NCBI GenBank assembly: GCA_022566775.1
Contig: JADFIJ010000007.1
Span: 1-34,104, forward strand
From: Pseudomonadota bacterium
GTDB taxonomy: Bacteria; Pseudomonadota; Gammaproteobacteria; Pseudomonadales; Pseudohongiellaceae
Direction: 5' to 3'
DNA: 34,104 nucleotides
Positions 4,396 through 34,104 of this stretch are shown in pieces. Within the stretch, counting starts at the first letter, position 1; every line of letters starts with the position of its first letter. Below the pieces are notes generated by a model. The model saw only the letters and a program-made list of their open reading frames with translations. It was not told the origin of the DNA and ran no database searches. Made by a program: the position numbers and the translations under genes.

Positions 4396-4398
4396 GTC

Positions 4399-5511: not shown

Positions 5512-5557
5512 GAACCGGGCGCCCAGTACCGACGATAGAAGTAACCGAATCTGCACT

Positions 5558-7683: not shown

Positions 7684-7700
7684 GTGTTCCCGAAGCAACA

Positions 7701-8936: not shown

Positions 8937-8957
8937 TTATCCCACCGGGGTTGTGTC

Positions 8958-10358: not shown

Positions 10359-10370
10359 GGCGGCAAGAAG

Positions 10371-11351: not shown

Positions 11352-11458
11352 AAGCATGGGAAATGTATGCCATCGGTTCCAGGGCGTTGCTTTTGCCGGG
11401 AGGGTGTAGCCCGGTTCGGAGCAGATGGGGAGCTTAGGAATTTGGAGAAAAGATAGAA

Positions 11459-12442: not shown

Positions 12443-12569
12443 GCGACGCAATACCGGGCTCTGCCGGGGCGACTCGTAGCTGAAAACATCGGTAAGAAAA
12501 CCGCCATTTACGGTCTGCCAATTGTTGCAGATATATTGCGCGGCCGCCTCAGCCGTCGCTGCCTCTCGA

Positions 12570-13043: not shown

Positions 13044-13169
13044 GCCGATAGTTCCTCCGTATTGGGCTGTTGCGTAGTTCGATTGCTGTAAGGTGTCGGC
13101 GTGTGAATCCGCAGGCGCCACACTCGACCCTGGCGATAGATTGAGCCTTGGCGTATAGATCCAGGCGGA

Positions 13170-13868: not shown

Positions 13869-14090
13869 CTCTAGTCGGACACCTGAGGTTATTTTATTGG
13901 AAGATGCCAGAGCTGCGCTGGCTTCGAAACCTGGATTACGCGGCTATGTACTATAACCAGAAATGTCGATGAGGCAAAGCCACCACCGTCATCGGCTCAT
14001 CTCAGATTAATGTCGCCAATGGGACTGGCTAAGACGCAGTCATCGAGGCAGGGCTCGATGGGGGACGCTGGCGCTAAAAAAAGAACCGCC

Positions 14091-14432
14091 CTAGTACCAT
14101 AAAACCAGGGCATAGCCGACTTTGCAACCGATGTGTACAGCCTGATCTTGATGCATGCCGATCCAGCCCTCACACTTGGCAAAGTCCGTAATCCAATGCA
14201 GGACGACCTCTAACAGCGCCAGCCACAGGCTGTTGGTGACCAGAAAGACGATACCGCCGTGCACCATGGCGTGTGCGGTGAGCCAGTAATACCAAACTGG
14301 GAACAGGCTCGCCTCTTTATCATGAATCTTGTCATTGCGATTCTTGCCGTAGCCCATAGCTTCGGGTTGCAACACGAAGTCAGCCAGAGCATGGCCAAAG
14401 ATCAGCATGAAAAGGGTTTCAATAAATGGCAT
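14091..14432 (-). CDS. DUF3307-like small membrane protein
   Basis: LIFGHALADFVLQPEAMGYGKN and LHWITDFAKCEGWIG; multiple hydrophobic segments. Confidence 0.65.
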   Translation of the reverse strand: MPFIETLFMLIFGHALADFVLQPEAMGYGKNRNDKIHDKEASLFPVWYYWLTAHAMVHGGIVFLVTNSLWLALLEVVLHWITDFAKCEGWIGMHQDQAVHIGCKVGYALVLWY

Positions 14433-15003
14433 GTCCGGGTCCCCAGCTAAGGTGGATCTTCCTTGTCAGAATTGGCGCGGCACCGCGAATATTTTCCGAG
14501 CCTGCTTCTGCAGGGGGAATAACAGCACGATTTACGCTACTCCACAATAATACGTATTAAACAGGCCAGGGGATCGCTCGCCGAGACGAAGTTGCGAGAG
14601 AGATCACACATATTTGCAACTTTATCCAAAGCTTTGACCGATATTGGTAAAATCCTGGTTTAACTTGTTGAAAAATCTACGGAATATAAAAAAACCCACA
14701 CTATGAAAATGCTGGAATTGAGTCGAAATTGGGCTAGATTTGAACAAATTTGACACAATATATCCCTGCCAGGCTAACCACCAGGGACTTCCAATTTTCA
14801 CCTCGGTCCCGGCAGTAGAACCGGCCAGCCGGTACCGTGCCGGCCCAGAGGCCGCTGTTGGTACCGTGTTCGAGAATCCAGATAAGTTCCACAGACCGTG
14901 CATAACACCTATTTTATGGTATGCCCTTGTACGTCATGGACTGACATTTCACATGTCGGTACAGGTTAGGTGTGAGTTCAACCAGGGCCATGTTTGCACC
15001 GGC

Positions 15004-15885
15004 TCATTGTGTCAAAAACAGGGCAGGATCGACTCGAGTGTTATTGAGATTCACACTCCAGTGCAGATGAGGTCCGGTTACTCTCCCGGTTTGGCCGACA
15101 CGGCCGATCTGGTCGCCGGTACGAATAACGGTACCGGGCTCCACATCGATCGTGTTCATATGGCAGTAGAGGCTGATCAGGCCATGACCATGGTCGATGA
15201 TGATGGTGTTGCCGTTGAAGAAATAGTTACCGGTGGTGAGAATAATACCCGGCGCGGGCGCGTAGATGGCTGTGCCTTCATCGGCGGCGATATCCATGCC
15301 GGAATGGGGATTGCGAGGCTGCTCGTTAAAAAAGCGCTTAAGGCCGAACGAACTGCTGCGGATGCCAGCCACCGGCGCCTGCATGCTGAAAACGGGTGTC
15401 AGAGAATCGTCCCAGCTGGAGAACGCCCTGGTCATCTCGGCACTCTCGCGATTTATTCGTACCATATCTTCAGCGTTAGGATTTACCTGGCGAGTATTGC
15501 TAATAGTAAGGTGTTGTTCAACATACTCCTTGAATTCGATGGAGAATTGCAGTGACTCACTACGCCCGTCTGCGAAACTGAGATCAAATTGCTGGGAACC
15601 GATCTCGGCATTCAAGGGAATGCCGATGATGGCATATTGTTCACCATTGTAATTCGCCAGAGTAATGCGTTGATTCTTATAGCGGCCGGACAGCGCCCCG
15701 GCGCGGGTGGGAATGACGGCGATGCCGCCTGGAACCAGGGAAGATTTGGGCAGTGTCGTGACGGCAACATCCGCCAGTATGTATGCAGAATTTACGAGCA
15801 ATAAGAGGCTTAGGCAAATTGGAATCAGATGACCTATAACTAGTCTTTGCCTAAATATAAGCCGGTGTATGCTCTTATTTCTCAT
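15004..15885 (-). CDS. M23 (LytM-type) peptidase/cell-wall endopeptidase, exported
   Basis: NPHSGMDIAADEGTAIYAPAPGIILTTGNYFFNGNTIIIDHGHGLISLYCHM and GPHLHWSVNL: complete HxxxD/HxH peptidase motifs. Signal peptide at N-terminus. Confidence 0.92.
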   Translation of the reverse strand: MRNKSIHRLIFRQRLVIGHLIPICLSLLLLVNSAYILADVAVTTLPKSSLVPGGIAVIPTRAGALSGRYKNQRITLANYNGEQYAIIGIPLNAEIGSQQFDLSFADGRSESLQFSIEFKEYVEQHLTISNTRQVNPNAEDMVRINRESAEMTRAFSSWDDSLTPVFSMQAPVAGIRSSSFGLKRFFNEQPRNPHSGMDIAADEGTAIYAPAPGIILTTGNYFFNGNTIIIDHGHGLISLYCHMNTIDVEPGTVIRTGDQIGRVGQTGRVTGPHLHWSVNLNNTRVDPALFLTQ

Positions 15886-17260
15886 CGTTTTCCACTGACT
15901 CCACCACGGAAATTATCTGTCCCCGGTTCACTCTGGATAAAATCGTACTGCCTATCTCAACATCGTCGCTGCGGCGGATTACTTTCGCGGAGTCGTCAAA
16001 GGTAATGCTGTATCCCCGGCCCAAGGTGCCGAGGGGGCTCACCGTGTTGAGAGAACGACTCAATTCCCCCAGTTTTGCAACACGAGTTTTAATCAGAGCA
16101 GTCGCCGCCTGCCTCAGGCTCTTCATCACATTGTCCATCTGAATTTTCAGTTGCTGCAGTCGCTGTGCCGGCGAATGTGCTAATAGTGATCTGGCCAGTT
16201 CGTTTAGATCACTTCTCTGTCTGCTGAGGCCGTGTGTTATCGCCAGCCGCAGACGGTTTTCGAGTCTATCCAGGTTCTGTGCCTGTTCCTGCAGGCGACG
16301 GTCTGGATGTTTTAACTGTTTAATCAACCATGCCAGAACCTGCTGCGCCTGGCGGAGGGTCTGTCCGATGGCGCTGCGAAACTGTAACTGATAAGCCGTA
16401 AGTAACTGAAAGTAATCCTCCTGGTCCGGGCTCATGAGCTCGGCGGCGGAAGAAGGGGTCGGTGCCCGCAGATCGGCGACGAAGTCGGCGATGGTGAAGT
16501 CGATCTCGTGGCCAACGGCGCTGGTTATCGGCAGTTCGCTAGCATAAATTGCCCGCGCAACCCGCTCCTCGTTGAATGCCTGCAGATCTTCCAGGGAGCC
16601 ACCGCCGCGACTGACGATGAGTGCCTGCAGGTCGAGTTTATGTCGGACTCGATTGGCAGATTCGATGGCGCTAACGATTTGCTCCACGGCATCGCCGCCC
16701 TGCACGGCGACGGGAAACAGGGTGATGCGGATGGCTGGAAACCGCCGTCTGAACACACTCAGAATATCCTGTAGCGCCGCCCCCGTCGGTGAAGTGACGA
16801 CACCGATGTGGTCATAGTGGGAAAGCACTTGCTGTTTATTTTCCTGATCGAACAGGCCCTCGGCCTGTAGCCTGGCTTTCAGTTCTTCGAATGCCCGCCG
16901 CAGGGCACCATCTCCCACTTCCTCCATGGAGTCGGCGATCAACTGGTAGTCGCCCCGTCCTTCATAAATGCTCAAGCGTCCCCTGACGATGATCTGATTG
17001 CCGTTTGCCGGTTTGAAGCGAACGCTCCTATTGTTCCCGCGAAACATGGCGCAGCGAATCTGGGCTGACTTGTCTTTTAAGGTTAGGTACCAATGGCCGG
17101 AGGCCGGCATCGCCAGGTTGGAAATTTCGCCTTCGACGATGACCGCCGGGAAATTGGATTCCAGTATCGAGCGCGCCATTCGATTGAGGCTGCTGACCGT
17201 GAGGAGTTTTGCGGGCGCATCGGCATCGGTGGTGGAGGCTGGGAATTCGCTCTGTCGCAT
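15875..17260 (-). CDS. xseA: Exodeoxyribonuclease VII large subunit
   Basis: OB-fold [86 protein letters not shown]-type motif. Overlaps the M23 gene by 11 nt. Confidence 0.96.
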   Translation of the reverse strand: [461 protein letters not shown]

Positions 17261-18711: not shown

Positions 18712-20772
18712 ATGAGAACAAGCTTGGTCAACCGGCTCCTGTTCGCGGCCTTGGTCTATCACTTGGGATTTAGCGCCCAACTGCTCGTCGCCCAGCAGGG
18801 TGCGCCCAACGGTGAATGGCCGAGTTACGGCGGTGACCTGGGTCACACGCGGTACTCGGCGTTGTCCCAGATCAACGCGCAGAATTTCTCGGAGTTGGAA
18901 CTGGCCTGGAGTTTCAAGACCGACAATCTCGGTCCGCGGCCGGAATACCGCTATCAGGCCACACCGCTGGTCATCGATGGTGTCATGTACACCACCGGGG
19001 GTTCCCGCCGCGCCGTAGTGGCGCTGGATGCCCGTACCGGCGAGATGCTGTGGATGTATAGTCTCGACGAGGGCGAACGTGGCGGGGCGGCACCCAGGCA
19101 ATTATCCGGCCGCGGTCTGGCATTCTGGCAGGAGGGCGAAGACAAGCGGGTATTATTTGTGACACCTGGCTACCGCCTGATAGCACTGGATGCAGGCAGC
19201 GGTCGCCCGGTGCCGGAATTCGGTGACAACGGCATCGTCGATCTGAAACAGAATGCCGATCAGCAGATCGACCTGGTGACGGGTGAGATAGGTCTGCACG
19301 CGACACCCATCGTCGCCAAGGATGTGGTGATCGTCGGCGCCGCTCATCGTACCGGCGGCAATCCCCGTAGCCGGGAAAATGTAAAGGGCTTCGTCAGGGG
19401 CTTCGACGTTCGCAGTGGTGAGCGCCTGTGGATTTTCCACACCATCCCCCTGCCGGGGGAGTATGGCTATGAATCCTGGTTAGACGGGTCCGCGGAATAC
19501 ACCGGCAACACCGGCGTGTGGGCACAAATTTCCGTAGATGAGGAATTGGAAATCGTGTATTTGCCGGTAGAGGAATCCACCGGCGATTACTATGGCGCCT
19601 ATCGGCCTGGCGATAACCTGTTTGGTGAAACCCTGCTGGCGGTAGATCTCCATAGCGGCGAGCGCAAGTGGCACTACCAACTGGTGCACCACGGGATCTG
19701 GGATCACGATATCCCCGCCGCGCCCATACTGCTGGATATCAATGTGGACGGCCGCCAGATCAAGGCCGTGGCCCAGCCGACGAAGCAGGCGTTCCTGTAT
19801 GTGTTCGACAGAGTCACCGGCGAGCCGGTGTGGCCAATCGAAGAGCGTGCCGTGGAGGCGGGAGACGTGCCGGGAGAATGGTATTCACCCACCCAGCCCT
19901 TTCCCACCAAACCGCCGGCCTATGACCGCCAGGGAGTGACCGAAGACGATTTGATCGACTTCAGCCCCGAACTGCGGCAACAGGCGCTGGAAATAGCGAG
20001 CTGGTACAAGCTGGGACCCATTTTTACGCCACCGGTGGTCAGCAATATCGACGGGCCGCTGGGCATCTTGATGGCGCCGGCAACCGGTGGGGGTACGAAT
20101 TGGCCCGGCGGCTCCTACGATCCGGAAACCAATATTCTGTACGTTTCGTCCAGTAGCTCGGTTGTGGGCCTGGCCGTGGTGCCACCCTATCCCGGCCAAT
20201 CGGATATGGCTTATATCCAAGGTAACGCCGCCACCGGCCCACGCACTTCCGGCGGTGCCGGCTCTGCGGCCGGCGGTGGCCGCACCGAATTTCAAGTCGC
20301 TGCGCGAGAACAACCGGTTTCAAGTCGCGGCAGGCCGCCGATTGGTTTGCTGGTACAGCGCCTGCCGCTATTAAAACCACCTTATGGCGTGATAGCCGCT
20401 ATCGATATGAACAGGGGCGAAATATTGTGGACGATTCCCCACGGTGAAACCCCGGACAACGTACGCAATCATCCCCTGCTGCGAAATCTCGATATTCCCA
20501 GAACCGGGCAGAGTGGTTCGGTGGGGACACTGGTGACCAGTACGCTGTTGATTGCAGGCGAACCCCAGTTCACCACGGACGGCTCGGGCGTGCGCGGCGC
20601 CTGGTTGCGTGCCTATGACAAGGCGACTGGCGTCGAGGTCGGCGCGGTGCATCTACCCGCACCGCAAACCGGCTCCCCCATGACCTATATGCTCGATGAT
20701 GAGCAGTACCTGGTGCTGGCGGTCAGCGGCAGCGGCTACTCCGGTGAACTCCGCGCTTACAAATTACCGTAA
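18712..20772 (+). CDS. PQQ-dependent (quinoprotein) dehydrogenase, membrane-GDH-like catalytic domain, exported
   Basis: N-terminal signal, NGEWPSYGGDLGHTRYSALSQI, repeated propeller motifs ([15 protein letters not shown]), LVHHGIWDHDIPAAPIL typical of the quinoprotein glucose dehydrogenase family. Confidence 0.9.
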   Translation: MRTSLVNRLLFAALVYHLGFSAQLLVAQQGAPNGEWPSYGGDLGHTRYSALSQINAQNFSELELAWSFKTDNLGPRPEYRYQATPLVIDGVMYTTGGSRRAVVALDARTGEMLWMYSLDEGERGGAAPRQLSGRGLAFWQEGEDKRVLFVTPGYRLIALDAGSGRPVPEFGDNGIVDLKQNADQQIDLVTGEIGLHATPIVAKDVVIVGAAHRTGGNPRSRENVKGFVRGFDVRSGERLWIFHTIPLPGEYGYESWLDGSAEYTGNTGVWAQISVDEELEIVYLPVEESTGDYYGAYRPGDNLFGETLLAVDLHSGERKWHYQLVHHGIWDHDIPAAPILLDINVDGRQIKAVAQPTKQAFLYVFDRVTGEPVWPIEERAVEAGDVPGEWYSPTQPFPTKPPAYDRQGVTEDDLIDFSPELRQQALEIASWYKLGPIFTPPVVSNIDGPLGILMAPATGGGTNWPGGSYDPETNILYVSSSSSVVGLAVVPPYPGQSDMAYIQGNAATGPRTSGGAGSAAGGGRTEFQVAAREQPVSSRGRPPIGLLVQRLPLLKPPYGVIAAIDMNRGEILWTIPHGETPDNVRNHPLLRNLDIPRTGQSGSVGTLVTSTLLIAGEPQFTTDGSGVRGAWLRAYDKATGVEVGAVHLPAPQTGSPMTYMLDDEQYLVLAVSGSGYSGELRAYKLP

Positions 20773-20857
20773 AGTAATGTCACACGGGCACTATGGTCCA
20801 AGTACACTGAACTCACAAAGCGATGTGATGGTATATCCTTCTGCATCAGCAATAAAA

Positions 20858-21010
20858 GTGCAGCACCGAGTGACAGAGGGAGACCTTAGGTTCCCGACAG
20901 AGTGAGGAGAACACTCTTGGGGGTGTCTCCTCCCTCCGTAGATGCATATTTCTCTTCGGATTCGGATATTTTCCTGGAGGAACCTCCCGGGAGGGGTGCA
21001 AGCTGCTGAG
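20858..21010. other. Structured intergenic region, candidate noncoding RNA or leader element
   Basis: Consecutive hairpins 20878-20895 (GGGAGACC/GGTTCCC) and 20904-20932 (GAGGAGAACAC/GTGTCTCCTC), perfect palindrome CCTCCCGGGAGG at 20983-20994, and potential closing pairs GCACC/GGTGC and GCAGC/GCTGC. Confidence 0.35.
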
Positions 21011-21102
21011 GCAGGAGGGTATGCCAGCACAGCGCGCCGTAACTGAACTGATTTTGCTCAATGCCACTCAAATCTGATTTCATCTATTCATCAGGAGGTT
21101 CT

Positions 21103-21888
21103 ATGTCCGTCAACTACTCTTCGATAATTGTTCTGTTGCTGACCAGTTCTTTTGCCTTGGCGGATTCCGTATCTGGATCGAAGGGTCCTATCGAAATAAC
21201 GACGCTGCTTCATGCTGGCGTGCAATTGGAGTACCAAGGTACTGTGGTCCAGGTAGATCCCTGGGATCGCCTGGGATTACCGCGCGCGAAACCGGCAGAC
21301 CTGATTCTGATTAGTGATGATCCTGGCCATCATCTCGATGTGGGCGCTATCGAGAGGCTGCGCAAGCCAGGAGCGAGTGTCGTCTTGACCGCAGCCGGCA
21401 AGCAGAAGTGGCCCGATGGAATTGTGATCGCGAATGGTGAAACTGTGAGGGTGGCAGGTGTCACAGTTGAGTCGATTGCAGCCTACGACATTATTCAGGG
21501 CAATCCTTCTCATCCCAAGGGTGACGCGAATGGCTATGTGGTCAGCCTCGGTGGCAAGAAATTCTTCTTCGCCGGCGTCACCGAATGTGTCGATGAAGTG
21601 AAGGCCCTGCAAGGTATAGATGTTGCCTTCATGCCCATGAATATTCCCCTGGCCCGGATGACGCCGGCGGCGGCGGCCGCCTGTACGCGCGGATTGAATC
21701 CCGCGGTGGTGTATCTGTATCACTACGATCAGGATTATGCGCGCCGAGCCCAGCAGCCCGATTACGTCGGTTCCGGCAGCCTGCCGGATGGATTGACAGT
21801 AGCCGAATCCCTTGAGCGGTTCGCGGAAGAGTTGGATGGATCGGGAATCGAATTCAGAATGGGAGAATTCTATCCGCCTCTCGACTAA
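21103..21888 (+). CDS. Exported MBL-fold metal-dependent hydrolase-like protein
   Basis: Signal peptide MSVNYSSIIVLLLTSSFALAD; LHAGVQLEYQGTVVQVDPW; LILISDDPGHHLDVGAIERL (UPF0173/UlaG-like layout); strong RBS aggagg. Confidence 0.75.
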   Translation: MSVNYSSIIVLLLTSSFALADSVSGSKGPIEITTLLHAGVQLEYQGTVVQVDPWDRLGLPRAKPADLILISDDPGHHLDVGAIERLRKPGASVVLTAAGKQKWPDGIVIANGETVRVAGVTVESIAAYDIIQGNPSHPKGDANGYVVSLGGKKFFFAGVTECVDEVKALQGIDVAFMPMNIPLARMTPAAAAACTRGLNPAVVYLYHYDQDYARRAQQPDYVGSGSLPDGLTVAESLERFAEELDGSGIEFRMGEFYPPLD

Positions 21889-21904
21889 GTCTAGCAGCGT
21901 ATAA

Positions 21905-22189
21905 CTAATTGCGGCTGATGTACGAGAGTATTACATCGTTGCCTATTCTGTCGATTATTTCACCGTCAGATAGGAAGTAGCTAATTGACCCGTCATCGTT
22001 GGCCCAGTGTTGGATATTGGCATTGACAAGTTCAGCGAGTATTTCTTCCCTTATTTCAGTGTTACCGATTTTGAACTTGCCTATGCGCCCGGCGCTTTCA
22101 TTGATGGCTGTCTCAGAAATCGCCGCCTCTTGGTTGGCATCACAGCCAACTGAGAGGATAAAGAGAATTAATAATTGCAGAAATTTCAT
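21905..22189 (-). CDS. Small putative lipoprotein of unknown function
   Basis: Lipobox-like MKFLQLLILFILSVGCDANQ; 94 aa. Confidence 0.55.
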   Translation of the reverse strand: MKFLQLLILFILSVGCDANQEAAISETAINESAGRIGKFKIGNTEIREEILAELVNANIQHWANDDGSISYFLSDGEIIDRIGNDVILSYISRN

Positions 22190-22282
22190 GGGATTAAAGT
22201 TTAAAATGCTTTCTCCAGCTTATCCATAAACCTCTGAGCATCTGAAACACAGATTAGGAACTAATTCGTTTCCCTGTTATTT

Positions 22283-23833
22283 CTAGTCGACGGGGACGAG
22301 CCGGACGATTCGACCGCCGGCGCTATGTTCCAGTAGCAAATAGATATCGCCGTCAGGACCCTGCTCGATATCACGAATGCGGCCGAGTCCTGCAATCAGG
22401 GTCTCGCGCCGGACCAGGCGATTGTTCTCGATGTCTATACGGAAAAGGCTGCGTGCCTTCAGGGATCCGACAAGAAAATCCCCCTCCCATTCGGGAAACT
22501 GTGTACTGCTGGAAATGATAAAACTGGATACGGCGGGAGAGGGTGTCAGGTCCACCACCGGCTGTTCGATATCGGCTAACTCGAAGGCGATGCCCAGCTC
22601 CTTGCCGTACTCGACCGGTGTGCCATCGTAGTCCATACCCAGAGAATACAAGGGCCAGCCATAGTTGCGCCCGGGCAGCAGACGGTTCACCTCATCGCCA
22701 CCACGGGGTCCGTGTTCGGTACCCCACAATTCACCGTTTACAAGATCGAATTCCAGTCCCTGGGGACTGCGATGGCCATAAGTATAGATGCTGCGATAGA
22801 CATCATCGCGATGGGCGAAGGGATTATCTTGCGGAATACTGCCATCATCGTTGACGCGATGAATCTTGCCCCAGGGCGTGGACAGATCCTGAATGCCGCG
22901 ATGATTGGCCTGTTGCACTTTTAAACCCACACTGAAATAGACATGGCCAGCATTATCGAAGGCGACCCGGCCACCGGCGGCCACATCGCTCGAGGCACTA
23001 TAGTGTTCGATATTCGCTTCCCAGATGGTTTCCTGCGCTATCCATTCACCTTCAACGATTTTGCCCCGTACCAGCTTGTTCATGGAAACCGGTGAACCCC
23101 GTTCTCGGCTGATGGCATTACAATCATCGCAGCGGTCACCGAAGTATAGATAGATCCAGCCGTTCTCCTCGTAGTTGGGATGCAGCACGATATCGAACAG
23201 CCAGCCCATGCCTCTCTCTATATCCAGGCGGGTATCCAGACGATAAATATCGTCATAGGCCTGGGGTGTTCCCGATATCAGCTCCGACTGCTCACCGCCG
23301 CGACTGATGATGCTGACACCTTGTGTTTTTTCGGTCAGCAGCAGGCGCCCATCGGGCAGAGGCTCGATCGAGAATGGCAGTGGATTGAGGTTGCTGACTA
23401 CCGTTTCCAGGCGGAAATTATGTAGCTCTGTCTCTATGGTGCCAGCTGGGATCGTAAGCGGCATTTCGAAATTTGAGGTCTCGTAATTAACGTCGGCGCG
23501 GGTCTCGAGGATGAACAGGGCAATGTTACGGATTTGCGCGTTGCTGAAGGTATCGCGCCAGTTGGGCATACCCGAGTCCGTATAGCCATTGCCGATACTC
23601 GCGGTAATCTCTGCCATGGAGTCACCGTGGCGCAGTTCTCCCCGCAGCGGCGTGCCCTGGGGTGCCCCTTCCAGGTTTTCACCATGACACACCGCGCAGT
23701 TCTCTTGAAACAGCGCAATGGAATCGGTGACACCGGAATAAGCCTGAGCTTGCGCGAAGGCAGCGGGCGCCACCATCAGAGTAGTTGGCAATACGATCAG
23801 CAAGATTTTTAAATACTGGCTCAGCTTTTTCAT
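22283..23833 (-). CDS. Cytochrome c domain fused to PQQ-dependent soluble aldose dehydrogenase (GSDH/YliI-like)
   Basis: Signal peptide; heme motif CAVCH; PFSIEPLPDGRLLLTEKTQGVSII, GMGWLFDIVLHPNYEENGWIYLYFGD, YGHRSPQGLEFDLVNGELWGTEHGPRGGDEVNRLLPGRNYGWP. ATG at 23833 preferred. Confidence 0.92.
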   Translation of the reverse strand: MKKLSQYLKILLIVLPTTLMVAPAAFAQAQAYSGVTDSIALFQENCAVCHGENLEGAPQGTPLRGELRHGDSMAEITASIGNGYTDSGMPNWRDTFSNAQIRNIALFILETRADVNYETSNFEMPLTIPAGTIETELHNFRLETVVSNLNPLPFSIEPLPDGRLLLTEKTQGVSIISRGGEQSELISGTPQAYDDIYRLDTRLDIERGMGWLFDIVLHPNYEENGWIYLYFGDRCDDCNAISRERGSPVSMNKLVRGKIVEGEWIAQETIWEANIEHYSASSDVAAGGRVAFDNAGHVYFSVGLKVQQANHRGIQDLSTPWGKIHRVNDDGSIPQDNPFAHRDDVYRSIYTYGHRSPQGLEFDLVNGELWGTEHGPRGGDEVNRLLPGRNYGWPLYSLGMDYDGTPVEYGKELGIAFELADIEQPVVDLTPSPAVSSFIISSSTQFPEWEGDFLVGSLKARSLFRIDIENNRLVRRETLIAGLGRIRDIEQGPDGDIYLLLEHSAGGRIVRLVPVD

Positions 23834-23927
23834 TGCTATTTCCTGTTCTCGTTTTATTCTTCTAATCAATTTATAACAAATTTATCGATGTGCGATTACA
23901 GGCCTGACACTATTGCCTTCCCGACTG

Positions 23928-25070
23928 TCAGCGGTCCAACTCCAATGAATCCAGGAATTCGATCAGGAGTCGATTAGTATCTTCCGGAGCCTGTTGCTGG
24001 TTTCGATGGCCGATGCCGGCTTGCAGTATTACGCCTCTAAGATCGTCAAACTGTGGCCTGCCTCGGGCCTCGAGCTGATCCTGCGTCGCACCCCTGTTCA
24101 CTATGTCCAGATCGCCGGCAATAAACAGAGCCGGCTGGCTTATTTTTTTGCCTGCAAGTTGAGTCGTAAGCTCCCAGTTCAGAGTGCCGTTGCGGTAGTA
24201 GTTGATGCCGCCTCTAAAACCGACGTTTTCAAATTCACTAACGTAATAGTCGAGGTCTTCCTTACTCAGCCAATGAGGCAAGCGAATGGGCTCGCCGAGT
24301 CGTTTTATCCAGCCACCTGCGCTGGCTCGTGGATCGGTGATTTCCGGTGGTTCAGTCGGGGTGCCCGGTGATCTTGAAGTATAGAGTCGAGCGATCAGGG
24401 CTCGTGGATCGGCATCGAATTCGGCTTCGGCCACTCCCGGTTCCTGAAAATAACGGGCATAGAAAAAGTCATCATCAGGTTCCTGGCGCAGCGCCTGGAC
24501 GGGTCTGGTCTCGGAACGTCCTCCATAGATGACGCTCAGACCAACAACAGCCTTAAAAACATCCGGATAAAGCAAAGCACTCTGCCACGCAATCGGTGCG
24601 CCCCAGTCATGACCTACAACTACTGCACTGTCTTCGCCAAGTGCTGACACTATGCCGGCGACGTCAGCCGTGAGTTCTATAATATTATAGTCTTCGATAT
24701 TTTCTGGGATGCTAGAGCCGCCATACCCGCGCATATCCGGCGCAACCGCGTGATAACCAGCATCGGCGAGCGCCTGTAACTGATGACGCCACGAATACCA
24801 GGACTCGGGCCAACCGTGAACAAGAATAACCAGCGGGCCTATGCCGGCTTCGACCAGGCGCAGTCTTATGCCGTTGGAATCCACATAAGTGACCTCGCCG
24901 CCGAATCTCGCGGCCAGTTCTTCGGTCCTGTCTGTGTTCGTTGACACGTTTACCTGTGCATCCTCGTTGCTTCTATTGCGCTGCAGTTGCGTCCCCACGA
25001 AGACGAGCGCCGCAATAAAACCGAGAACGCCAATGGCTGTGGCTATAGGTGGAATATTGGCTTTGTGCAT
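23928..25070 (-). CDS. Alpha/beta hydrolase, epoxide hydrolase-like, with N-terminal membrane anchor
   Basis: LVILVHGWPESWYSWRHQLQALADAGYHAVAPDMRGYGGSS, VVVGHDWGAPIAW nucleophile elbow; N-terminal hydrophobic segment IATAIGVLGFIAALVFVG. Confidence 0.9.
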   Translation of the reverse strand: MHKANIPPIATAIGVLGFIAALVFVGTQLQRNRSNEDAQVNVSTNTDRTEELAARFGGEVTYVDSNGIRLRLVEAGIGPLVILVHGWPESWYSWRHQLQALADAGYHAVAPDMRGYGGSSIPENIEDYNIIELTADVAGIVSALGEDSAVVVGHDWGAPIAWQSALLYPDVFKAVVGLSVIYGGRSETRPVQALRQEPDDDFFYARYFQEPGVAEAEFDADPRALIARLYTSRSPGTPTEPPEITDPRASAGGWIKRLGEPIRLPHWLSKEDLDYYVSEFENVGFRGGINYYRNGTLNWELTTQLAGKKISQPALFIAGDLDIVNRGATQDQLEARGRPQFDDLRGVILQAGIGHRNQQQAPEDTNRLLIEFLDSLELDR

Positions 25071-25128
25071 TTGATACCACCAGGGTGTTTTTCCAATCCG
25101 TCATCGAGTCCAATGACAGCATTTGAGC

Positions 25129-26931
25129 CTAATTCAGAGCGAACACCCAAAGTGCTGCTGCCCCGGGATTGGTATCGGTATATCCGGTAAACCTATTCAT
25201 CAGGCCGAGCCAGATTCCCGTGTGCAGGTTAAGCTGCCCGGCCACCACGGCGATGTATTGCTTACCGTCGACGCTGTAACTGATTGGAAACGAAGAGGGG
25301 ATGGCGTCGAGTTCAGTCTGCCAAAGAATCTCACCATTTCGTTGATCGAAGGCCTTGAACGAATGGTCCAGGAAGCCAAGGAATACCAGGCCTCCTGCCG
25401 TCGCCAGGGTCGCGGAAATCGGCGGTATTACCTGCCGATGTTGCCAGGCTAACTCGCGCCGTTCTAAATCGATGGCCTGGAGCCGCCCGAATTTGCCATC
25501 GCTGCCGGGAATTGGGACGGCATCCATCCACAGCCCGCTGCTGAGCAGTGTGCCCTCACCATTAAGCAGGGTATCCATGCAGACCTCAAACATCGGCACG
25601 AACAACATCTTGGACTCGCTGTTGATGGAGCTGGCCTGCCAGTTGCGACCCCCTTGATAGAGCGGACAGACCGTACGAATAATTTCGGCGTCGGGGATAA
25701 CATCGGGGTTGATCAGTTTGGTCCCGGTGACCGGGTCGATGCCGATGACGATGTTTTGTATGCCCGGATCTACGGAAAACAGGTATTGACCTGTGGCTGC
25801 ATCCAGCGCATCGAAGAGGCCGGGCTTGCCCGCAGTGACGATCACTTTTCTGGTTTCGCCATCGATATCGAGTTCGACAATCGACCGCTCGAATGCCCAG
25901 TCAAGATCGAATTGATCGTTGGCAATGTGCTGGTAATACCAGACCAGTTCGCCGGTGGCCGGTCGCAGGGCGAGAGTCGCATTGGTGTAGAGCGCGTCGT
26001 TGCTAACCCCTTCGATGCCTAGGGGATACAGCAAGGGCCCGGTATTGTAGGTAGGCGAAACGCCGAAGAAAACCAGATCCAATGCCGGGTCATAGCCACC
26101 GGTATTCCATACCGAGCCGCCCTGACGCTGTTCCAGTGGGATGTTGTTCCAGGTGTTGCCGCCCGGTTCACCAGGCCTGGCCAGGGTGTAAAAGCGCCAG
26201 GTTTCCTCGCCGGTTTCCAGATCGACGGCGATGATAAAACCACCCCCGGGTACCCGGGAGGCAGCCACGCCCTGGATTACCTGCCCCCCTGCTGTCAGTG
26301 GCGCACTGCGCAGTGCGTAACCGCTGTTATCACCCGTATCGATGGCGTGATCCCACAGGACCCTGCCGGAGCGCGCATCCAGCGCCACCATGTGCAGATC
26401 CGAGGTGGGCACCAACACCTTGTTCTCATGCAGTGATATACCAAACTTATGGCTGGTGATGGCGCCACCTTGGTGCCGATAGCGCCACAACAGCTCACCG
26501 TTGGTGGCATCCATGGCCAGCACCACATCCCCGGCGCTATAGAGAAACATGACGCCATCGTGTACCAGTGGAGTTGGCATGTTGTTGCCGGGGGTCACCG
26601 TTTGGTGCCAGGCGAGTTCCAGATCGGTAACGGTTTGTCTGTTGATCGAGTCGAGAGGTGAATAGCCCTTATTGTCATAAGTACGACGCCATATCAACCA
26701 GTCGGAGGGAGGGGGATTTTGTAAGAGTTCATCATTTACCGATGAATAATTGCGTAGTAATGGAACCTCGTCAGGGTCAGCTATCACAGATTGCAGCGAA
26801 CTGGCGTCGGTTCGACCATATTGCTCGATAATTCCTCTTGGAGGGCTGCCGTCCTGCTGGGCGATTGCCGTGTTAACGAATAGTGCTAGCAGCAGAACAA
26901 AAGCTGTAGCGATGTGTATTATCGTTCTCAT
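25129..26931 (-). CDS. PQQ-dependent alcohol dehydrogenase-like quinoprotein, exported
   Basis: Signal peptide MRTIIHIATAFVLLLALFVNTAIAQ; WLIWRRTYDNKGYSPLDSINRQTVTDLELAW; VWNTGGYDPALDLVFFG; propeller motifs (VLAMDATNGELLWRYRH). Confidence 0.9.
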   Translation of the reverse strand: MRTIIHIATAFVLLLALFVNTAIAQQDGSPPRGIIEQYGRTDASSLQSVIADPDEVPLLRNYSSVNDELLQNPPPSDWLIWRRTYDNKGYSPLDSINRQTVTDLELAWHQTVTPGNNMPTPLVHDGVMFLYSAGDVVLAMDATNGELLWRYRHQGGAITSHKFGISLHENKVLVPTSDLHMVALDARSGRVLWDHAIDTGDNSGYALRSAPLTAGGQVIQGVAASRVPGGGFIIAVDLETGEETWRFYTLARPGEPGGNTWNNIPLEQRQGGSVWNTGGYDPALDLVFFGVSPTYNTGPLLYPLGIEGVSNDALYTNATLALRPATGELVWYYQHIANDQFDLDWAFERSIVELDIDGETRKVIVTAGKPGLFDALDAATGQYLFSVDPGIQNIVIGIDPVTGTKLINPDVIPDAEIIRTVCPLYQGGRNWQASSINSESKMLFVPMFEVCMDTLLNGEGTLLSSGLWMDAVPIPGSDGKFGRLQAIDLERRELAWQHRQVIPPISATLATAGGLVFLGFLDHSFKAFDQRNGEILWQTELDAIPSSFPISYSVDGKQYIAVVAGQLNLHTGIWLGLMNRFTGYTDTNPGAAALWVFALN

Positions 26932-27093
26932 TACAATGCACCCCGTAAGGTTCGGTTGTTTATGCCCTGGCTTCACAGGCGGTTATTCTGCTCTGAATTT
27001 TAACGCGATGTGCCCGCATTCTGCCAGTTGGTCTTGCCTTAGCATTTTGGACCACTGCGCCAGGTCATAATTTCTGCTTCGAATGGGGCTTGC

Positions 27094-27138
27094 CAAAAAC
27101 GAGAAAGGGCGCCGACCGGTAACAGCCGGTGGGCGCCC
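27094..27138 (-). terminator. Rho-independent-like terminator downstream of the FAH-family gene
   Basis: On the minus strand: GGGCGCCCACCGGCTGTTACCGGTCGGCGCCC hairpin followed by TTTCTCGTTTTTGG. Confidence 0.75.
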
Positions 27139-27165
27139 GAGAGTTCGTCATGACCCTCTGCGCTG

Positions 27166-28326
27166 CTAACGGTACGTACTTACCGGAGGTAACTGCGCAC
27201 CCGACAGGTCGTCCGGAATGCTCATCTCGACCCTGACCGTGTGGGTCAGTGTGCCGATTCCCTCGATGCTGGCACTGATGGTCTCACCGTCGATCAGGTA
27301 TCCGGAGCCTGACGCGCGCTCGACGCGACCAGCACCGGTTCCGCCCGACGTCCCGCTCTGCATGACATCACCGGGGAAGACCGTGATCAGCGACGAGGCG
27401 TACTCGATGAGCTCAGGGATATTATGGATCATGTCACCAGCCCTGGCCTCCTGCACGGTGACGCCGTCGATAACCAGGGTCTGGTGCAGGCGCTCCATGG
27501 GATCGCCATAGAACTCTTTTGGCACGATCCAGGGACCATGCGGCGCGAACGTGTCGTGGCCCTTGCCGACGAACCAGTCCGAACCGGAGCCAAAACCGCC
27601 AGGAGGACGTCCGCCACGGTCGGAGATGTCCATCGCCACCATATAACCAAACACGTAGTCGTACGCACGGTCCGCGGAGATGTACTTACCGGTGCGGCCG
27701 AAGACGATGGCCATCTCCACTTCCCACTCGATCCGGTCACGTCCGTAGGGCATGATGATGTCCTCACCGTCGCCGATGATTGCTCCGCGGGTGGGCTTCA
27801 GGAACAGATAGGGAACGCCGCGGTTTTCCTGACGCTGGCGCAGGCGAGCTTGAAATTCATCGTCATTGCAGCCCTCGCAGGCGTGGCTGTAAAAGTTCAC
27901 GGCCGCGTTCATGAGTTTGCTTGGATACTGAATCGGGGCCATGATATCCACCGAGCCCACCGGGTGCACAAAGCTGCGCTGGCCACTGCCGCTCAGCAGA
28001 TTCTCCTCCACGAGCCAGTTCACAACCTCGTAGATCCGGAACTTCAGGCCGTACTCGTACTGCTCGATGAGCCCGAGCATATCCTCGGGCATGCTGATCT
28101 GGCTGTACTGCGGCAGCAACTGCATGGCGCGGTTCGCGGCCGCAAGCTCGACGATCAGCTGGTCATCGCGCATGACCAGGCCGACGGTCGGTATATCGTT
28201 GATCGCAAAGGTGCCGACCTTGAACGGCTCGACCGACTCCATGGCCTGGGCAGAGACGTCGACCGGGCTGGCAAAAATCACCAGCGTCGCAGCAAACGCC
28301 AGGGTTAATAGGGACTTTCTTATCAT
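27166..28326 (-). CDS. Fumarylacetoacetate hydrolase family protein with Sec-type signal peptide
   Basis: MIRKSLLTLAFAATLVIFASPVDVSAQAMES signal; IEWEVEMAIVFGRTGKYISADRAYDYVFGYMVAMDISDR; GDVMQSGTSGGTGAGR; FAH fold motifs. Confidence 0.88.
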   Translation of the reverse strand: MIRKSLLTLAFAATLVIFASPVDVSAQAMESVEPFKVGTFAINDIPTVGLVMRDDQLIVELAAANRAMQLLPQYSQISMPEDMLGLIEQYEYGLKFRIYEVVNWLVEENLLSGSGQRSFVHPVGSVDIMAPIQYPSKLMNAAVNFYSHACEGCNDDEFQARLRQRQENRGVPYLFLKPTRGAIIGDGEDIIMPYGRDRIEWEVEMAIVFGRTGKYISADRAYDYVFGYMVAMDISDRGGRPPGGFGSGSDWFVGKGHDTFAPHGPWIVPKEFYGDPMERLHQTLVIDGVTVQEARAGDMIHNIPELIEYASSLITVFPGDVMQSGTSGGTGAGRVERASGSGYLIDGETISASIEGIGTLTHTVRVEMSIPDDLSGAQLPPVSTYR

Positions 28327-28535
28327 TTCTTACTCCCGTGCAGAGCACTAACAGGCTTATTGGTAGAACCAAAGCTATCTCTGTAGTGGGCCAATGTCCA
28401 GGCCTATGAATTGTGAGCTGCTTATTGGCCTATCATCGACGACAGCGCTGAATCTATTTAATTTGGGAGTAATGGGATACACTCGAGTCGTTAACCTATT
28501 AATCCAATTTCCTGCGAGCTCAAAAGGAGAACATC

Positions 28536-28913
28536 ATGAAATTAACAAGAAAAATTATGCTAATCGTCCTAATCGGACTATTTTCCCAATTTTCCATGGC
28601 GGATAACGCCTCATCTGCCAAGGAAATCGCCGATATTGTTGCGTCTTTGAATCATTTCCCGTCTGACGCGGACAAGGAAGCGTTGATGGCTATCTCCTCA
28701 GACGATAGCCTTGGCGAAGGCGTACGGGCTATGGCTACGGCGATTGCTACTTTTGCCCATTCTGCAAATGACGAAGGCAAAGCAGCGATGGCCATGATCC
28801 AGGCTAATGATGAGGCCCCTGACCGCACCAAGGAATTGGCCGGAATAATTGCCGGTATCACCCACACGGCTAGTGCGGATGCGAAAGCCACGCTGGCAGA
28901 ATTGTTCCCGTAG
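28536..28913 (+). CDS. Small secreted protein with three ~35-aa helical repeats, unknown function
   Basis: Signal MKLTRKIMLIVLIGLFSQFSMAD; RBS aaaggag; three internal repeats; followed by a terminator. Confidence 0.8.
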   Translation: MKLTRKIMLIVLIGLFSQFSMADNASSAKEIADIVASLNHFPSDADKEALMAISSDDSLGEGVRAMATAIATFAHSANDEGKAAMAMIQANDEAPDRTKELAGIIAGITHTASADAKATLAELFP

Positions 28914-28936
28914 TAATCGCTCAAGGATGACCGAAG

Positions 28937-28965
28937 GCCTCGCTTTGTCACGAAGCGAGGCTTTT
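28937..28965 (+). terminator. Rho-independent terminator
   Basis: GCCTCGCTT tgtcacg AAGCGAGGC TTTT, 9-bp perfect stem and U-tract, 24 nt after the small repeat protein. Confidence 0.85.
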
Positions 28966-29030
28966 CCCGTTTCAACTATAATGCACCCGGTGTGGGGCAG
29001 ACGGTTGCGGACCGCGTATTTAGTTTGGTC

Positions 29031-31217
29031 CTAATCTGGCAGCTTGAACACATACAGTGCGTTATGCCCGTCCGGGCTGCTCAGCTCCGGCGCCAGGAAA
29101 CTGCCGATGCGCCACGGGCTGCCGCCCTCGCGGCCGGCAGCAATGGCGATGTACTGTTCGCCATCGATGGCGTATGACACCGGAAACCCCTGCACCGATG
29201 TAGCGAGTCTGGTGCGCCACAGTTCCTCACCGTTGCTGACGTCGTAGGCGTGGACGTAACGGTCGTAGTCGCCTATGAACAGCAGGCCGCCGGCCGTACT
29301 CAAGGCGGCGGTCAGGAAAGGCGCGCGCTGCTCCACACTCCAGGTCTCATCCATGGTGGCCACGTTGTAGGCACCCAGTTTGCCGAACTGCTCATCGGTG
29401 CCGGGCATGGGCATCCATCTGCGATCCCCCTGAGTGCCGCCGGAGCCGATTTCAAATGTAGTTTGCCGGGGTGACATCTCCATGCAGGACTGGCTCAGCG
29501 GGATGATCAGTTGCTGGGTGGGGGGGTGATAGGTACTGGACTGCCAGTTATGGCCACCGGCGGTGGAGGGGCATACCGAGAGCCATTCTCCTATTTTCAT
29601 GTTGCGAATGTCTTCCCGATACCGTACCTGACCGGTTTCCAAGTTAAGCTCCGAAAACACATTTTGATAAACCGTCTGTTTTAAGCCCCGGAACTCTCCG
29701 CTGCGACGATCCAGCTTCCAGAGGATGCCGCTCTTGCCGATCGTCAGCAGGAAGGGTTCATCGAATATATCCACCAGCACCTGTTCGAATGCCTCGTCCA
29801 TGTCCAGGGATTCGCCGGGCACATGCTGTCGATACCACACCAGGCGGCCATCATCCGGATTCAGTGCCAGGGTGGAATTGGAATACAGGGCGGCGTCTTC
29901 GGTGGTGAGGCCGCGGCTCGCCGCCATCCAGGGCTTGGCCTGGGCGGTACCGAAAAACACAAGATTCAGATCCGGATCCCAGCTGCCGCTTATCCAGACA
30001 TCGACGCCGCCGCGGAATTCCAACGGTAGTCCACCCCAGCTATCGCCCCCGGCTTCCCCGGGCCGGGCGACGGTATAGGTACGCCAGAGTTCTTCACCGC
30101 TGCGGGCGTCGTGGCCGGTGATGAAACAGCTCTCTTCATAGAAACGGCCACACCCGGTGATGCCATTGATGACCTTGCCATTGGCTACGATGGGGCCGCT
30201 GGTGTTGGAGTAGCCCAGGCTGCTGTCGGCGATTTCAACATCCCAGCGTACGGCACCGGTACGGGCGTCCAGCGCCACCAGGTGCGCGTCGGTGGTGGCG
30301 ACATAGATCATGTCCTCCCACATCGCCAGCGTACGCAGATGCCCGCCCTGGCGACCCCCTTCCGGAAACTGCCGGCGGTATTCCCATAATAAGGTGCCAT
30401 CTCGCCCATTTAAGGCTTGCACGACGTTGCCAAAATTGGGAATGAAAATAAACCCATCTCTCACCAGTGGCGCCGGTTGGCTGCGGCCGGGTTCCATGCC
30501 CCAGACCCAGGCCAGGCTCAGGTTCTTAACATTGTCGGTATTGATTTGCGTGAGCGGCGTAAAACCGTGGCTCTGTGGAGTGCGGCGCCAATAGGTCCAG
30601 TCGGCGGCGGCTGGGTCGATCAGCTCAGCCGTGGTGACATTGCGAAAACCCGGCAGCGCTTGCAGGGAGCGGGTCAGTGCGCGTTCAGACCGGTAGATGG
30701 TGGCAAACTCCGGCACGCTGCTGCGAGCAGAGGGAGTGGGCATGGTGCCGGCTCTGCCGGGAACCGGTAGTCGCGGGGCTTGTCGCTGCACCGCGTTGGC
30801 CTGATCGCCAATGAAGGCGACCGCGTCAGATGAGAAGCTCAGCGCCTGGGAGCCAGGGGCGATATCGTTGGCGCTGAGCAGGTGCGCTACCAGGGCCGCG
30901 TAGTCTGCATCTGCCAGGCTCGCCGGCGCCTGTGGCGGCATCGTGCGTCGGATTAGATCCAACAGCTCGCTGACACTTCGATTCGACCAGTTGCTGGTGA
31001 AGTTGCTGCCGGCAAGCGCCGGTGCTTCGAATGAACCCTGCAGATCCAAGAGATGACAGACGGCGCAATTCTGCTGATAGAGGGTGGCGCCGGTGCCGGC
31101 CTGGGCCTGGGTAAAGCTGGCTTGCTCGAGCTCCTGCGCCAGCGAGGTGGCAGCACAGGAGGCTGCAAACAACAGCGACACGCTCAGAAGCCGTTTGCGG
31201 ACGCTTGGATTATTCAT
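29031..31217 (-). CDS. Cytochrome c-PQQ dehydrogenase (quinohemoprotein-type), N-terminal cytochrome c
   Basis: N-terminal signal, CAVCH heme motif, [34 protein letters not shown], propeller motifs ([17 protein letters not shown]), [17 protein letters not shown]. Confidence 0.9.
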
Positions 31218-31288
31218 GCCATCATCTCTTATTATCAGCTGCCCGCCGATTATTGCAGCGGCTCCTGTAGTCGACCCGATCGATCAAT

Positions 31289-32632
31289 TTAATTCAGCGA
31301 CAGGGTTTCCTGATATGCCCGCCTCTCGGCTATGGCCTGCACATACTGCTCTTCATCGATGTAGGTGATGCCGACCCAGGCATGACTCATCTCATCGACA
31401 CCCCGGCGGCCAAACACCACCCACTGGTTGGGGTCCGGGTTAATCGGATTGTTCGCCGTATTATCGAACACGGTGGTGAATTGCAGCACCGTGCCCCTCG
31501 GCAATATGGGTTTTACTTCGTCGGCATAAATGTAGGCGATCTGCCAGGTGTGGTTGTATTTATTCACCTGGCTCAGCACTTCCCTGCGACCGTCAGGATA
31601 AATGGCGGTCATGGTCATCACCTTGCCGCGCATGTGCATGTGGGGACGAAAACTGTGAAGCACCGCCGCCGACTGCAACACGTGGGTGCCCTGTAATACC
31701 TGATAGCCATGGGGAGGGATGATGATGTCCTGTCCCCTGGCCATGCCATTGAGGCCGTCTACCCTGAACATGGATTCGCCATTGGTAACGAGTTCCGGCT
31801 GCTGACCTTCGGGATAAAACCAGAGGCCGACCTCGACCACATCGTCTTCACCCCCGATACCCACCGGAAAATAGTGCAGGTTCCAGGCGATGTTGCCACC
31901 GGCCGGCACCAGCATGCCGGTGCCCTGAGGGTATATTTCCCAGGACTTGCCGACGCCATATCTGGCCAGTGCCACGGCGCGGCCGCCATCGGCGGGCTGC
32001 AGTACCGCATGGCCGTGGTGCACGACCTTCTTGCCCAGGGGAAAGGAGGGCTTAAATTCCGCCGCGCGCAGCCAGCGATCTGATTCGAGGCCTTCAAATG
32101 GCACATCCGGTGTCCACCACTGATCCTGACCATTGGCGATCACATCATAGGGTCTGGACTTGATAATCAGGTCAGGCGGGCCTAATTCCTCGGCGAGGTG
32201 CCAGGCACCGCCGGCGAGCAACTGGATCGGTGCGGGCAGGTCTGCCGGGTCGCCCTCGGGCGCTCCCCCGTCCGCCCAGGCGGCGAGCGTGGCTATCTGT
32301 TGTTCCGACAGCGAGGCATCGTTCTTGAACTGTTGAATACCGGTGGTGGGATCGTTATGCCAGGGCGGCATCATGCGCTTGCCGGTTCTGTCTTTTATCA
32401 GCGCAGCGAAGGGCATTACCTGCTGGTAGGTCTGCAGTGGCATCGGGCCGATACCGTCCGGATTGTGGCAGCTCACGCACTTCTGCTGCAGGATCGGAGC
32501 CACATCCCTGGCGTAGACAGGCGCGAATGCGCTACCGTCCTGGGCCAGCATACCACCGGTGAAACCCGTCAGCACCAGGAAGACGGCTAATTGTAAAATA
32601 CTACCTCGATGTGTTTGCCTGTAACTGTTCAT
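31289..32632 (-). CDS. Cytochrome c domain fused to copper type II (PHM/DBM-like) monooxygenase-like domain, exported
   Basis: Signal peptide; CVSCH heme motif and MMPPWH; candidate Cu ligands VVHHGH, WNLHY, PHMHMRG, DEMSHAW. Confidence 0.82.
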   Translation of the reverse strand: MNSYRQTHRGSILQLAVFLVLTGFTGGMLAQDGSAFAPVYARDVAPILQQKCVSCHNPDGIGPMPLQTYQQVMPFAALIKDRTGKRMMPPWHNDPTTGIQQFKNDASLSEQQIATLAAWADGGAPEGDPADLPAPIQLLAGGAWHLAEELGPPDLIIKSRPYDVIANGQDQWWTPDVPFEGLESDRWLRAAEFKPSFPLGKKVVHHGHAVLQPADGGRAVALARYGVGKSWEIYPQGTGMLVPAGGNIAWNLHYFPVGIGGEDDVVEVGLWFYPEGQQPELVTNGESMFRVDGLNGMARGQDIIIPPHGYQVLQGTHVLQSAAVLHSFRPHMHMRGKVMTMTAIYPDGRREVLSQVNKYNHTWQIAYIYADEVKPILPRGTVLQFTTVFDNTANNPINPDPNQWVVFGRRGVDEMSHAWVGITYIDEEQYVQAIAERRAYQETLSLN

Positions 32633-32697
32633 TCGGCGCTCCTGTTTAAGAGGTGGGTCTCAAGCTGTGTGGTTTATTCGTTGCTGTTTCAATTCTC

Positions 32698-33558
32698 TTA
32701 ATTACTGATATCGACCGTAAAATAGGCATTGGTATGGCAACAGTAAAATTCAAACGCCGCGATACTGTCAATGGTCTGCATGCGCACAATATAGCGCCCC
32801 GGGGCTGCGAACGTCGCCTCAACTTCGGTGGGTCCTGCAGCGGGTCTCATCATATACTCCAATTCGTCGAATTCGACAACACCCGGTCCAGAATGCTTGG
32901 CCCATCCCACCCATATTTCCTCGTCGGGGTGTTCGATCCAGGCGCTTAAGTTTACCGCTTCCCCCACCCGTCCGCTAATAGCAGCTTCGGAAAATAACCC
33001 CTTGCGACCACGCACGCCGACACCATCGGCGGATAGTTTCACCAGCGGTGCCACGTCACCGCGACCGCCGGAAGCCGGCTCGTCTAATACATAAGCCGGC
33101 AGAATGTGTCCGGGGATGCTCAGAGATTGGCTGGCGCTGCTCAGATTCCACACCACGGTTTCATCGATGCCGAAACTGGCAGGCACGGTGACGGTAAAAA
33201 CACAGAATTTGTGCCGGTAGCGCGGTGGCAGTGGATCGAAATGGGTGGGCAGAATGGCGTCAAGACTGGCGTCGCTTAGATGGTTATCGGTCCCCAATGG
33301 AATGGTCAGTGATTGTTCGGAATTGAGATTGAAGAAGCTGAAACAGAGACTCTTGCTGCCATCTGCATTGGCAAACCAGCCGTCGAACAAGGGAATCACT
33401 GGCTGGCCGCTGGGTCTTATGACATCGGCAGACCAGATCTGATTGGACAATTGAATCTGTTGTGCCACTGTACCCGCAATAGGCGAGAGCAACAGCGCCA
33501 GCAACAACGCCTGTAACAACAGGCAGCGCTTGCTTGACAGGTTCTTGCTCATCATCAT
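32698..33558 (-). CDS. Exported protein of unknown function, C-terminal Ig/PKD-like segment with Cys-Cys motif
   Basis: Signal peptide CLLLQALLLALLLSPIAGTVAQ; WAKHSGPGVVEFD...VEATFAAPGRYIVRMQTIDSIAAFEFYCCHTNAYFTV. Start chosen among several adjacent ATGs (33552-33558). Confidence 0.7.
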   Translation of the reverse strand: MMMSKNLSSKRCLLLQALLLALLLSPIAGTVAQQIQLSNQIWSADVIRPSGQPVIPLFDGWFANADGSKSLCFSFFNLNSEQSLTIPLGTDNHLSDASLDAILPTHFDPLPPRYRHKFCVFTVTVPASFGIDETVVWNLSSASQSLSIPGHILPAYVLDEPASGGRGDVAPLVKLSADGVGVRGRKGLFSEAAISGRVGEAVNLSAWIEHPDEEIWVGWAKHSGPGVVEFDELEYMMRPAAGPTEVEATFAAPGRYIVRMQTIDSIAAFEFYCCHTNAYFTVDISN

Positions 33559-34104
33559 GGCGAGGACTCTATAGATGCTGTAGTGCCCGCCGATAGTACT
33601 CAATCCCTGAGCCGTTGTCTCCTGCGGGCACCAATCCTGGGCCTTGCAACCCAGACTCTGGTCAGCTCGCTGGCTGTGCGGGAAGACGACTGATGTGTGG
33701 CTCCAGGCACGTGTTGCAGATCGCCTGCAGGGCGAATCCCAACTAGCGCGACTTCGGGTCGCACGCGCTCTAACACGCGATAATCGGGCTTTCTACCGTA
33801 CTTTAAGAGTAAATGCATCATTTGTTTGTAAGAGCGCGCTTTAGCGCTTTACGCTTATTGTGGTAGAATTCTCGAGGTGGCTTCTCTGGTTTTTGGCACT
33901 AAGGTGCTGAAATCTAAGAGAAGACGCTCGAATGTCCCTGTTCATAGTAGATATTATGCAAGAATCTACGGAATTATAGCATTACGTAATGGTAATATGT
34001 GTCATTAGAAATTAATTCATAAAGGTTTATATACTCGTTGATTGAGTATTTATTATTCATTTATCAAATCGCGTAAATGAAGTATAGATGAACAGCGGTT
34101 TTGC

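Follow-up and report, generated by a model that had tools for sequence, protein, structure and literature searches.

A composite block of genes for predicted exported proteins

The window analysed here, 34,104 nt of contig JADFIJ010000007.1 (contig C228 of our genome G000, assembly GCA_022566775.1), comes from an uncultured marine member of the Pseudohongiellaceae known from a 3.4-Mb draft of 299 contigs that is 86 % complete. It carries a block of eleven genes for predicted exported proteins (18712-33603; Table 1), among them PHM, whose product combines a cytochrome c domain with the fold of the copper enzymes peptidylglycine alpha-hydroxylating monooxygenase (PHM) and dopamine beta-hydroxylase (DBH), and cQ3, coding for a cytochrome c fused to a propeller of the pyrroloquinoline quinone (PQQ) dehydrogenase type. 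The block is composite: only Ig-PHM-cQ3 and the divergent gene Q1, often together with MBL, make up a conserved unit, which is ancestral and found throughout the genus, and other genes were added recently.

The block is not one operon, because Q1, MBL and sml run on the plus strand, leaving two minus-strand units: Ig-PHM-cQ3, with intergenic gaps of 65 and 71 bp, and FAH-Q2-ABH-GSDH-lipo, with gaps of 189, 58, 58 and 93 bp. Promoter and terminator scans found no more sites than in shuffled sequence. Using our own heuristic, which looks for a hydrophobic core and a cleavage motif and is predictive only, an export signal, a lipobox or an N-terminal anchor was predicted in 11/11 block products against about 6/15 upstream controls. 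This agrees with a preliminary description of the block, which took all eleven products to be exported and whose family assignments are borne out by Pfam matches and the closest PDB relatives. The true starts of GSDH, Q2, MBL and Ig probably lie 8-16 codons inside the longest open reading frame (about 15-17 for Ig).

Table 1. Genes of the exported-protein block, with positions in the window
Gene	Position	Strand	Product	Place in the block
Q1	18712-20772	+	Predicted exported PF01011 propeller; Gly at catalytic Asp position	Core
MBL	21061-21888	+	Predicted exported metallo-beta-lactamase-fold protein, Lactamase_B_3	
lipo	21905-22189	-	Small lipoprotein, lipobox LSVGC; no family	Also in G084
GSDH	22283-23869	-	Predicted exported cytochrome c + Asd/sGDH-type domain	Late arrival
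ABH	23928-25070	-	Predicted N-terminally anchored, EphA-type epoxide-hydrolase-like alpha/beta hydrolase	Late arrival
Q2	25129-26976	-	Predicted exported PQQ-ADH/sorbose-dehydrogenase-like propeller, PF01011; catalytic Asp retained	Late arrival
FAH	27166-28326	-	Predicted exported fumarylacetoacetate-hydrolase-family protein	Late arrival
sml	28536-28913	+	Small protein, predicted to be secreted; no family	Separates the two minus-strand units
cQ3	29031-31217	-	Predicted signal peptide + cytochrome c + PQQ-ADH-type propeller	Core
PHM	31289-32632	-	Predicted signal peptide + cytochrome c domain + PHM/DBH-fold dicopper domain	Core
Ig	32698-33603	-	Predicted exported two-domain Ig-like protein	Core, upstream of PHM

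Ig, PHM, cQ3 and Q1 are conserved across the genus

Synteny was examined in 84 genomes of the genus, mostly drafts, from which 28 loci were fetched for comparison of the core. Orthologues of PHM and cQ3 (about 70-79 % identity) lie side by side in 48/84 genomes, and in all 26 fetched loci with the three genes Ig, PHM and cQ3 are on the same strand with gaps of less than 260 bp. Gene Q1 is divergent from Ig, at a distance of at most 1.1 kb in 20 of the 28 fetched loci and of about 3.3 kb in three more, and MBL is next to Q1 or cQ3 in 11/28. In the lineage of the window, a rearrangement has displaced Q1 and MBL to the opposite end of the block, about 14 kb from Ig, with the added genes in between. 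The conserved co-occurrence expected in the preliminary description is therefore found for PHM and cQ3, with Ig upstream and Q1 divergent, but does not extend to FAH, ABH, Q2 and GSDH, which are outside the conserved unit.

Upstream of Ig in genome G105 (L151:14498-18891), in a region that corresponds to DNA past the end of the window's contig, there are genes for an exported Rieske protein, a propeller dehydrogenase (36 % identity to cQ3), a dihaem protein of the MauG/MbnH family and a YtkA-like protein; apart from the Rieske gene, they are also neighbours of the core in several genomes.

The remaining genes were assembled recently

Only the three nearest genomes (G000, G105 and G084) have added genes within the block. 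The series lipo-GSDH-ABH-Q2-sml is present in the G084 block, and FAH lies in the block in only two genomes; its slot in G084 (L177:2041-2997) is filled by a gene whose product, an unrelated exported protein of 318 aa, contains the motif PDLQGVW, so that a cassette may have been exchanged here. This synteny distribution indicates the order of acquisition, with a genus-wide core joined by GSDH, ABH and Q2 and then by FAH. Some of the added genes nevertheless have recurrent partners, since GSDH is linked to Q2 in G041 too, the two being separated by a gene for an exported glyoxalase-fold protein, and an orthologue of ABH lies beside a pair of Ig and PHM paralogues in G012 and G099 (L186 and L190).

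Both hydrolases of the added part retain the motifs of their families. The FAH product matches PF01557 with 164.7 bits (cut-off 23.9), and H148xxE151, E202, E204, D233 and K255 are present in 95/95 relatives; we take the Glu, Glu and Asp residues to be metal ligands and His-x-x-Glu to be a dyad, as in the family. Its closest solved relative is 2,4-diketo-3-deoxyrhamnonate hydrolase. ABH, a putative epoxide hydrolase, aligns with EphA (PDB 5cw2, E 9e-92) and has the nucleophile motif HDWG and the cap tyrosines.

The preliminary description had read the eleven genes as a single extracytoplasmic degradation pathway, leading from hydroxylation through epoxide hydrolysis and alcohol oxidation to C-C hydrolysis. 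Predicted export of every product, the intact motifs of FAH and ABH, the short gaps within the two minus-strand units and the ABH orthologues adjoining Ig-PHM paralogues would all suit such a route. Nevertheless, the route is not indicated, because FAH, ABH, Q2 and GSDH are outside the conserved unit; besides the window, GSDH, ABH and Q2 are joined to it only in G105 and G084, and the G084 block does without FAH. We consider one pathway for the whole block highly improbable.

FAH was also considered as the anchor of a module and rejected, as its orthologues (75-94 % identity), found at about 100 loci, have different surroundings everywhere except at the near-identical L072 and L151, and no single neighbouring gene is shared by over 12/77 loci. 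Genes for exported cupin proteins directly adjoin FAH in about 11/77 loci (L111, L128 and relatives), and relatives of sml (62-67 % identity) are found near an FAH orthologue (L065) and a GSDH orthologue (L185) in other genomes. FAH is also about 79-83 % identical in metagenome-assembled genomes labelled as Alphaproteobacteria (Kordiimonadaceae and Emcibacteraceae; L076, L091, L097, L101 and L108), which suggests horizontal transfer or mislabelled bins.

PHM codes for a cytochrome c-linked protein of the PHM/DBH fold

The AlphaFold model of the PHM product (mean predicted local distance difference test, 86.9) has the two-domain PHM fold: the top 31 Foldseek matches in the PDB are all PHM or DBH (E 2.6e-12, template modelling score by target about 0.6). 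Sequence comparisons gave a score of 18.1 bits for Pfam Cu2_monoox_C (cut-off 23), which is weakly matched by 24 of 50 members of the family, and no match to the N-terminal Pfam model; in the PDB, the single sequence had no match and a profile no meaningful one. In an alignment of these 50 members (30-93 % identity), H205, H206 and H253 and H331, H333 and M415 are invariant, as are the haem motif C52xxC55H56 and M88. By this alignment the protein has both sets of ligands, CuH (His, His, His) and CuM (His, His, Met), in an order that we take to be that of H107/H108/H172 and H242/H244/M314 in rat PHM. On the evidence of the model, the PHM product is a real member of the PHM/DBH fold, and the intact ligands are consistent with copper loading at both sites.

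The Ig product did not match any Pfam or NCBIfam family, and a fold search gave no informative match; a gene of the Ig family lies within about 1.5 kb of 17/30 PHM-family loci. Three PHM-family members in the alignment of 50 also match AhpC/TSA, which suggests a redoxin-PHM fusion.

The propeller proteins have altered active sites

The label quinoprotein, given to the propeller proteins in the preliminary description, is less well supported than the PHM fold: cQ3, Q1 and GSDH lack canonical catalytic or metal residues, all active-site calls being alignment-based. The cQ3 product is a PQQ-type beta-propeller by homology (PF01011, E 7e-60; PDB 4cvb, E 7e-103), scoring below the cut-off of TIGR03075, and both cQ3 and Q2 align across the whole propeller with PQQ alcohol and sorbose dehydrogenases (PDB 4cvb, 4mh1, 22vi and 7wmd; E about 1e-78 to 1e-103). 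Glu occupies the position of the catalytic Asp and Gln that of the calcium-ligand Asn in cQ3 as well as in its orthologues, and the Trp of the cofactor floor and the Lys are conserved. These substitutions are conservative and shared by the orthologues, suggesting a working altered site and not decay.

In Q1 (HHGIWD), as in 31 of 40 aligned relatives, Gly replaces the catalytic Asp of membrane glucose/quinate-type PQQ dehydrogenases. The catalytic Asp is kept in Q2, where the Glu position is Arg and the Asn position, in a loop, is ambiguous. The closest solved relatives of GSDH are Asd-type enzymes; the window and its relatives have DVAAGGR or DVGAGGR in place of the NHFGGR of 2g8s, with Ala for the catalytic His that precedes the GGR motif of soluble glucose and aldose-sugar PQQ dehydrogenases. 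Among 43 aligned PF01011 paralogues of the same genome, the catalytic Asp is present in 28, and several have the full Asp/Glu/Asn set and the vicinal disulfide.

A possible periplasmic oxidation core

We tentatively propose that the block consists of an ancestral periplasmic oxidation core, in which a PHM-type hydroxylase is coupled to cQ3, plus recently added genes. The PHM-fold dicopper protein would carry out the O2-dependent hydroxylation of a C-H bond in a small organic substrate, with its fused cytochrome c replacing ascorbate as electron donor. The product of cQ3 would then oxidise the resulting alcohol and pass the electrons on through cytochrome c, either back to the copper sites or into the respiratory chain, while Ig might serve PHM as a scaffold or as a partner for substrate or copper. 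FAH, ABH, Q2, GSDH and sml are probably a cassette-like extension or swap of specificity, and not the completion of a fixed pathway. As to precedents, two reports describe a PQQ dehydrogenase that drives a copper-dependent lytic polysaccharide monooxygenase (LPMO) in Coprinopsis (PMC5960967) and bacterial LPMOs reduced by c-type cytochromes (PMC8981238). In the sister family HTCC2089, oxygenases are reported to be abundant and may act on terpenoids, hydrocarbons or algal metabolites (PMC8371827), which by analogy fits the idea of oxidation by PHM and cQ3 without testing it.

Several observations weigh against this proposal. The pairing of PHM with cQ3 rests on a single orthologous locus; outside the genus, none of the loci sampled (two candidates per genome scored) had a PHM gene beside the cQ3 relative, and genes of the PHM and PQQ-propeller families are not co-localised genome-wide in the finished genomes G111 and G112 (p about 0.17-0.4). 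Lacking canonical PQQ or metal residues, cQ3 and Q1 may not be alcohol dehydrogenases. Additionally, six genomes have neither pqqC nor pqqE: G000, G084, G105 (99 % complete) and, each in a single contig, G111, G112 and G025; as a positive control, pqqE was found in 17/84 genomes, and pqqC in all three pqqE-bearing genomes checked. A search with Escherichia coli PqqU found no close homologue, its one match (24 % identity) being in G105. Gram-negative bacteria commonly scavenge PQQ without synthesising it (PMC12124388), so that the use of imported PQQ is possible.

The core and pqqE are anticorrelated: they occur together in 5 genomes, where about 10.7 would be expected (84 genomes, Fisher p 0.002). 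When only genomes with a completeness of at least 90 % are counted, p is 0.086; neither value is corrected for relatedness. Together with the missing catalytic residues of cQ3, Q1 and GSDH, the absence of pqqC and pqqE and the MauG/MbnH-like and YtkA-like genes beside the core in several relatives, the anticorrelation would agree with a core that is not catalytic on organic compounds, its PHM-fold/cytochrome c protein and propellers forming a complex for copper or redox handling or for electron transfer, in which propellers without cofactor act as scaffolds. Such a role appears unlikely, as all the copper ligands of PHM are intact, the substitutions in cQ3 are conservative and kept in orthologues, and other propeller paralogues in the genome retain full PQQ sites.

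The genome that contains the window has about 52 matches to PF01011 and about 29 to the PHM family, not all of them distinct full genes, which makes adjacent genes for exported oxidoreductases less surprising. In SAR202, paralogue expansion has been argued to widen the substrate range (PMC6946804). With so many relatives in 3.4 Mb, no co-localisation above chance elsewhere (G111, G112), an FAH slot swapped between near relatives and Q1 relocated within the block, the added half could have come together by chance, as unrelated members of large exported-enzyme families that ended up at a variable site and have no substrate in common with the core. We regard this as possible though doubtful, given that it leaves the core unexplained and that GSDH is linked to Q2 also in G041 and ABH to Ig-PHM paralogues.

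Extending the coupled-core proposal beyond this locus, bacteria may have a family of PHM-fold copper hydroxylases that act in the periplasm and carry their own cytochrome c, often with an Ig-like partner for each and numbering about 20-30 per genome. One of them would form a self-sustaining couple with an altered-site cytochrome c-propeller dehydrogenase, in organisms without PQQ synthesis; in this full form the idea is speculative and rather improbable. A literature search that did not include subscription journals found no paper on the quinoproteins of the genus, on the term 'empty quinoprotein' or on a bacterial cytochrome c-PHM. PHM and DBH are chiefly known from animals, and if the idea is correct, these cytochrome c-fused proteins with intact copper ligands would mean that marine bacteria possess a great many periplasmic oxygenases that have yet to be studied. 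Dozens of quinoprotein-like genes in genomes with no pqqC or pqqE also pose a testable question, namely whether their products use PQQ brought in from outside, a different cofactor or no cofactor at all. In annotation, a run of genes for exported oxidoreductases should not be read as a pathway unless its synteny has been tested.

Surroundings of the block

A dctA-like gene adjoins the start of the block, and positions 914-17260 of the window contain largely housekeeping genes (ndk, rlmN, ispG, hisS, bamB, der and xseA, among others). At 43-504, on the minus strand, there is a partial open reading frame with repeated VVNFADVQ-like motifs that resemble dockerin-type calcium repeats.

Comparison with known systems

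The products of Q1, Q2 and cQ3 match TIGR04528, the Acido-empty-quinoprotein group A (E 5e-69 to 2e-83), and the presence of many propellers in a genome that lacks PQQ synthesis is a further likeness, but their scores of 233-281 bits are far under the cut-off of 650. Compared with PQQ alcohol and sorbose dehydrogenases, cQ3 and Q2 are alike over the whole propeller, with the Trp of the cofactor floor and the Lys conserved, whereas cQ3 differs by its N-terminal cytochrome c, by Glu for Asp and Gln for Asn; it does not have the vicinal disulfide, which is likewise missing in 4cvb. The PHM product resembles the type II, ascorbate-dependent copper monooxygenases PHM and DBH in its modelled fold, as found by structure search, and in the order and number of its copper ligands (HH, H, HxH, M), and departs from them in its N-terminal cytochrome c, its sub-cut-off Pfam scores and its large bacterial paralogue family. 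The Coprinopsis dehydrogenase-LPMO pair (PMC5960967) is a secreted fungal system with another copper enzyme fold and another cytochrome, and its likeness to the PHM-cQ3 core would lie in the proposed logic, a quinoprotein feeding electrons to a copper monooxygenase.

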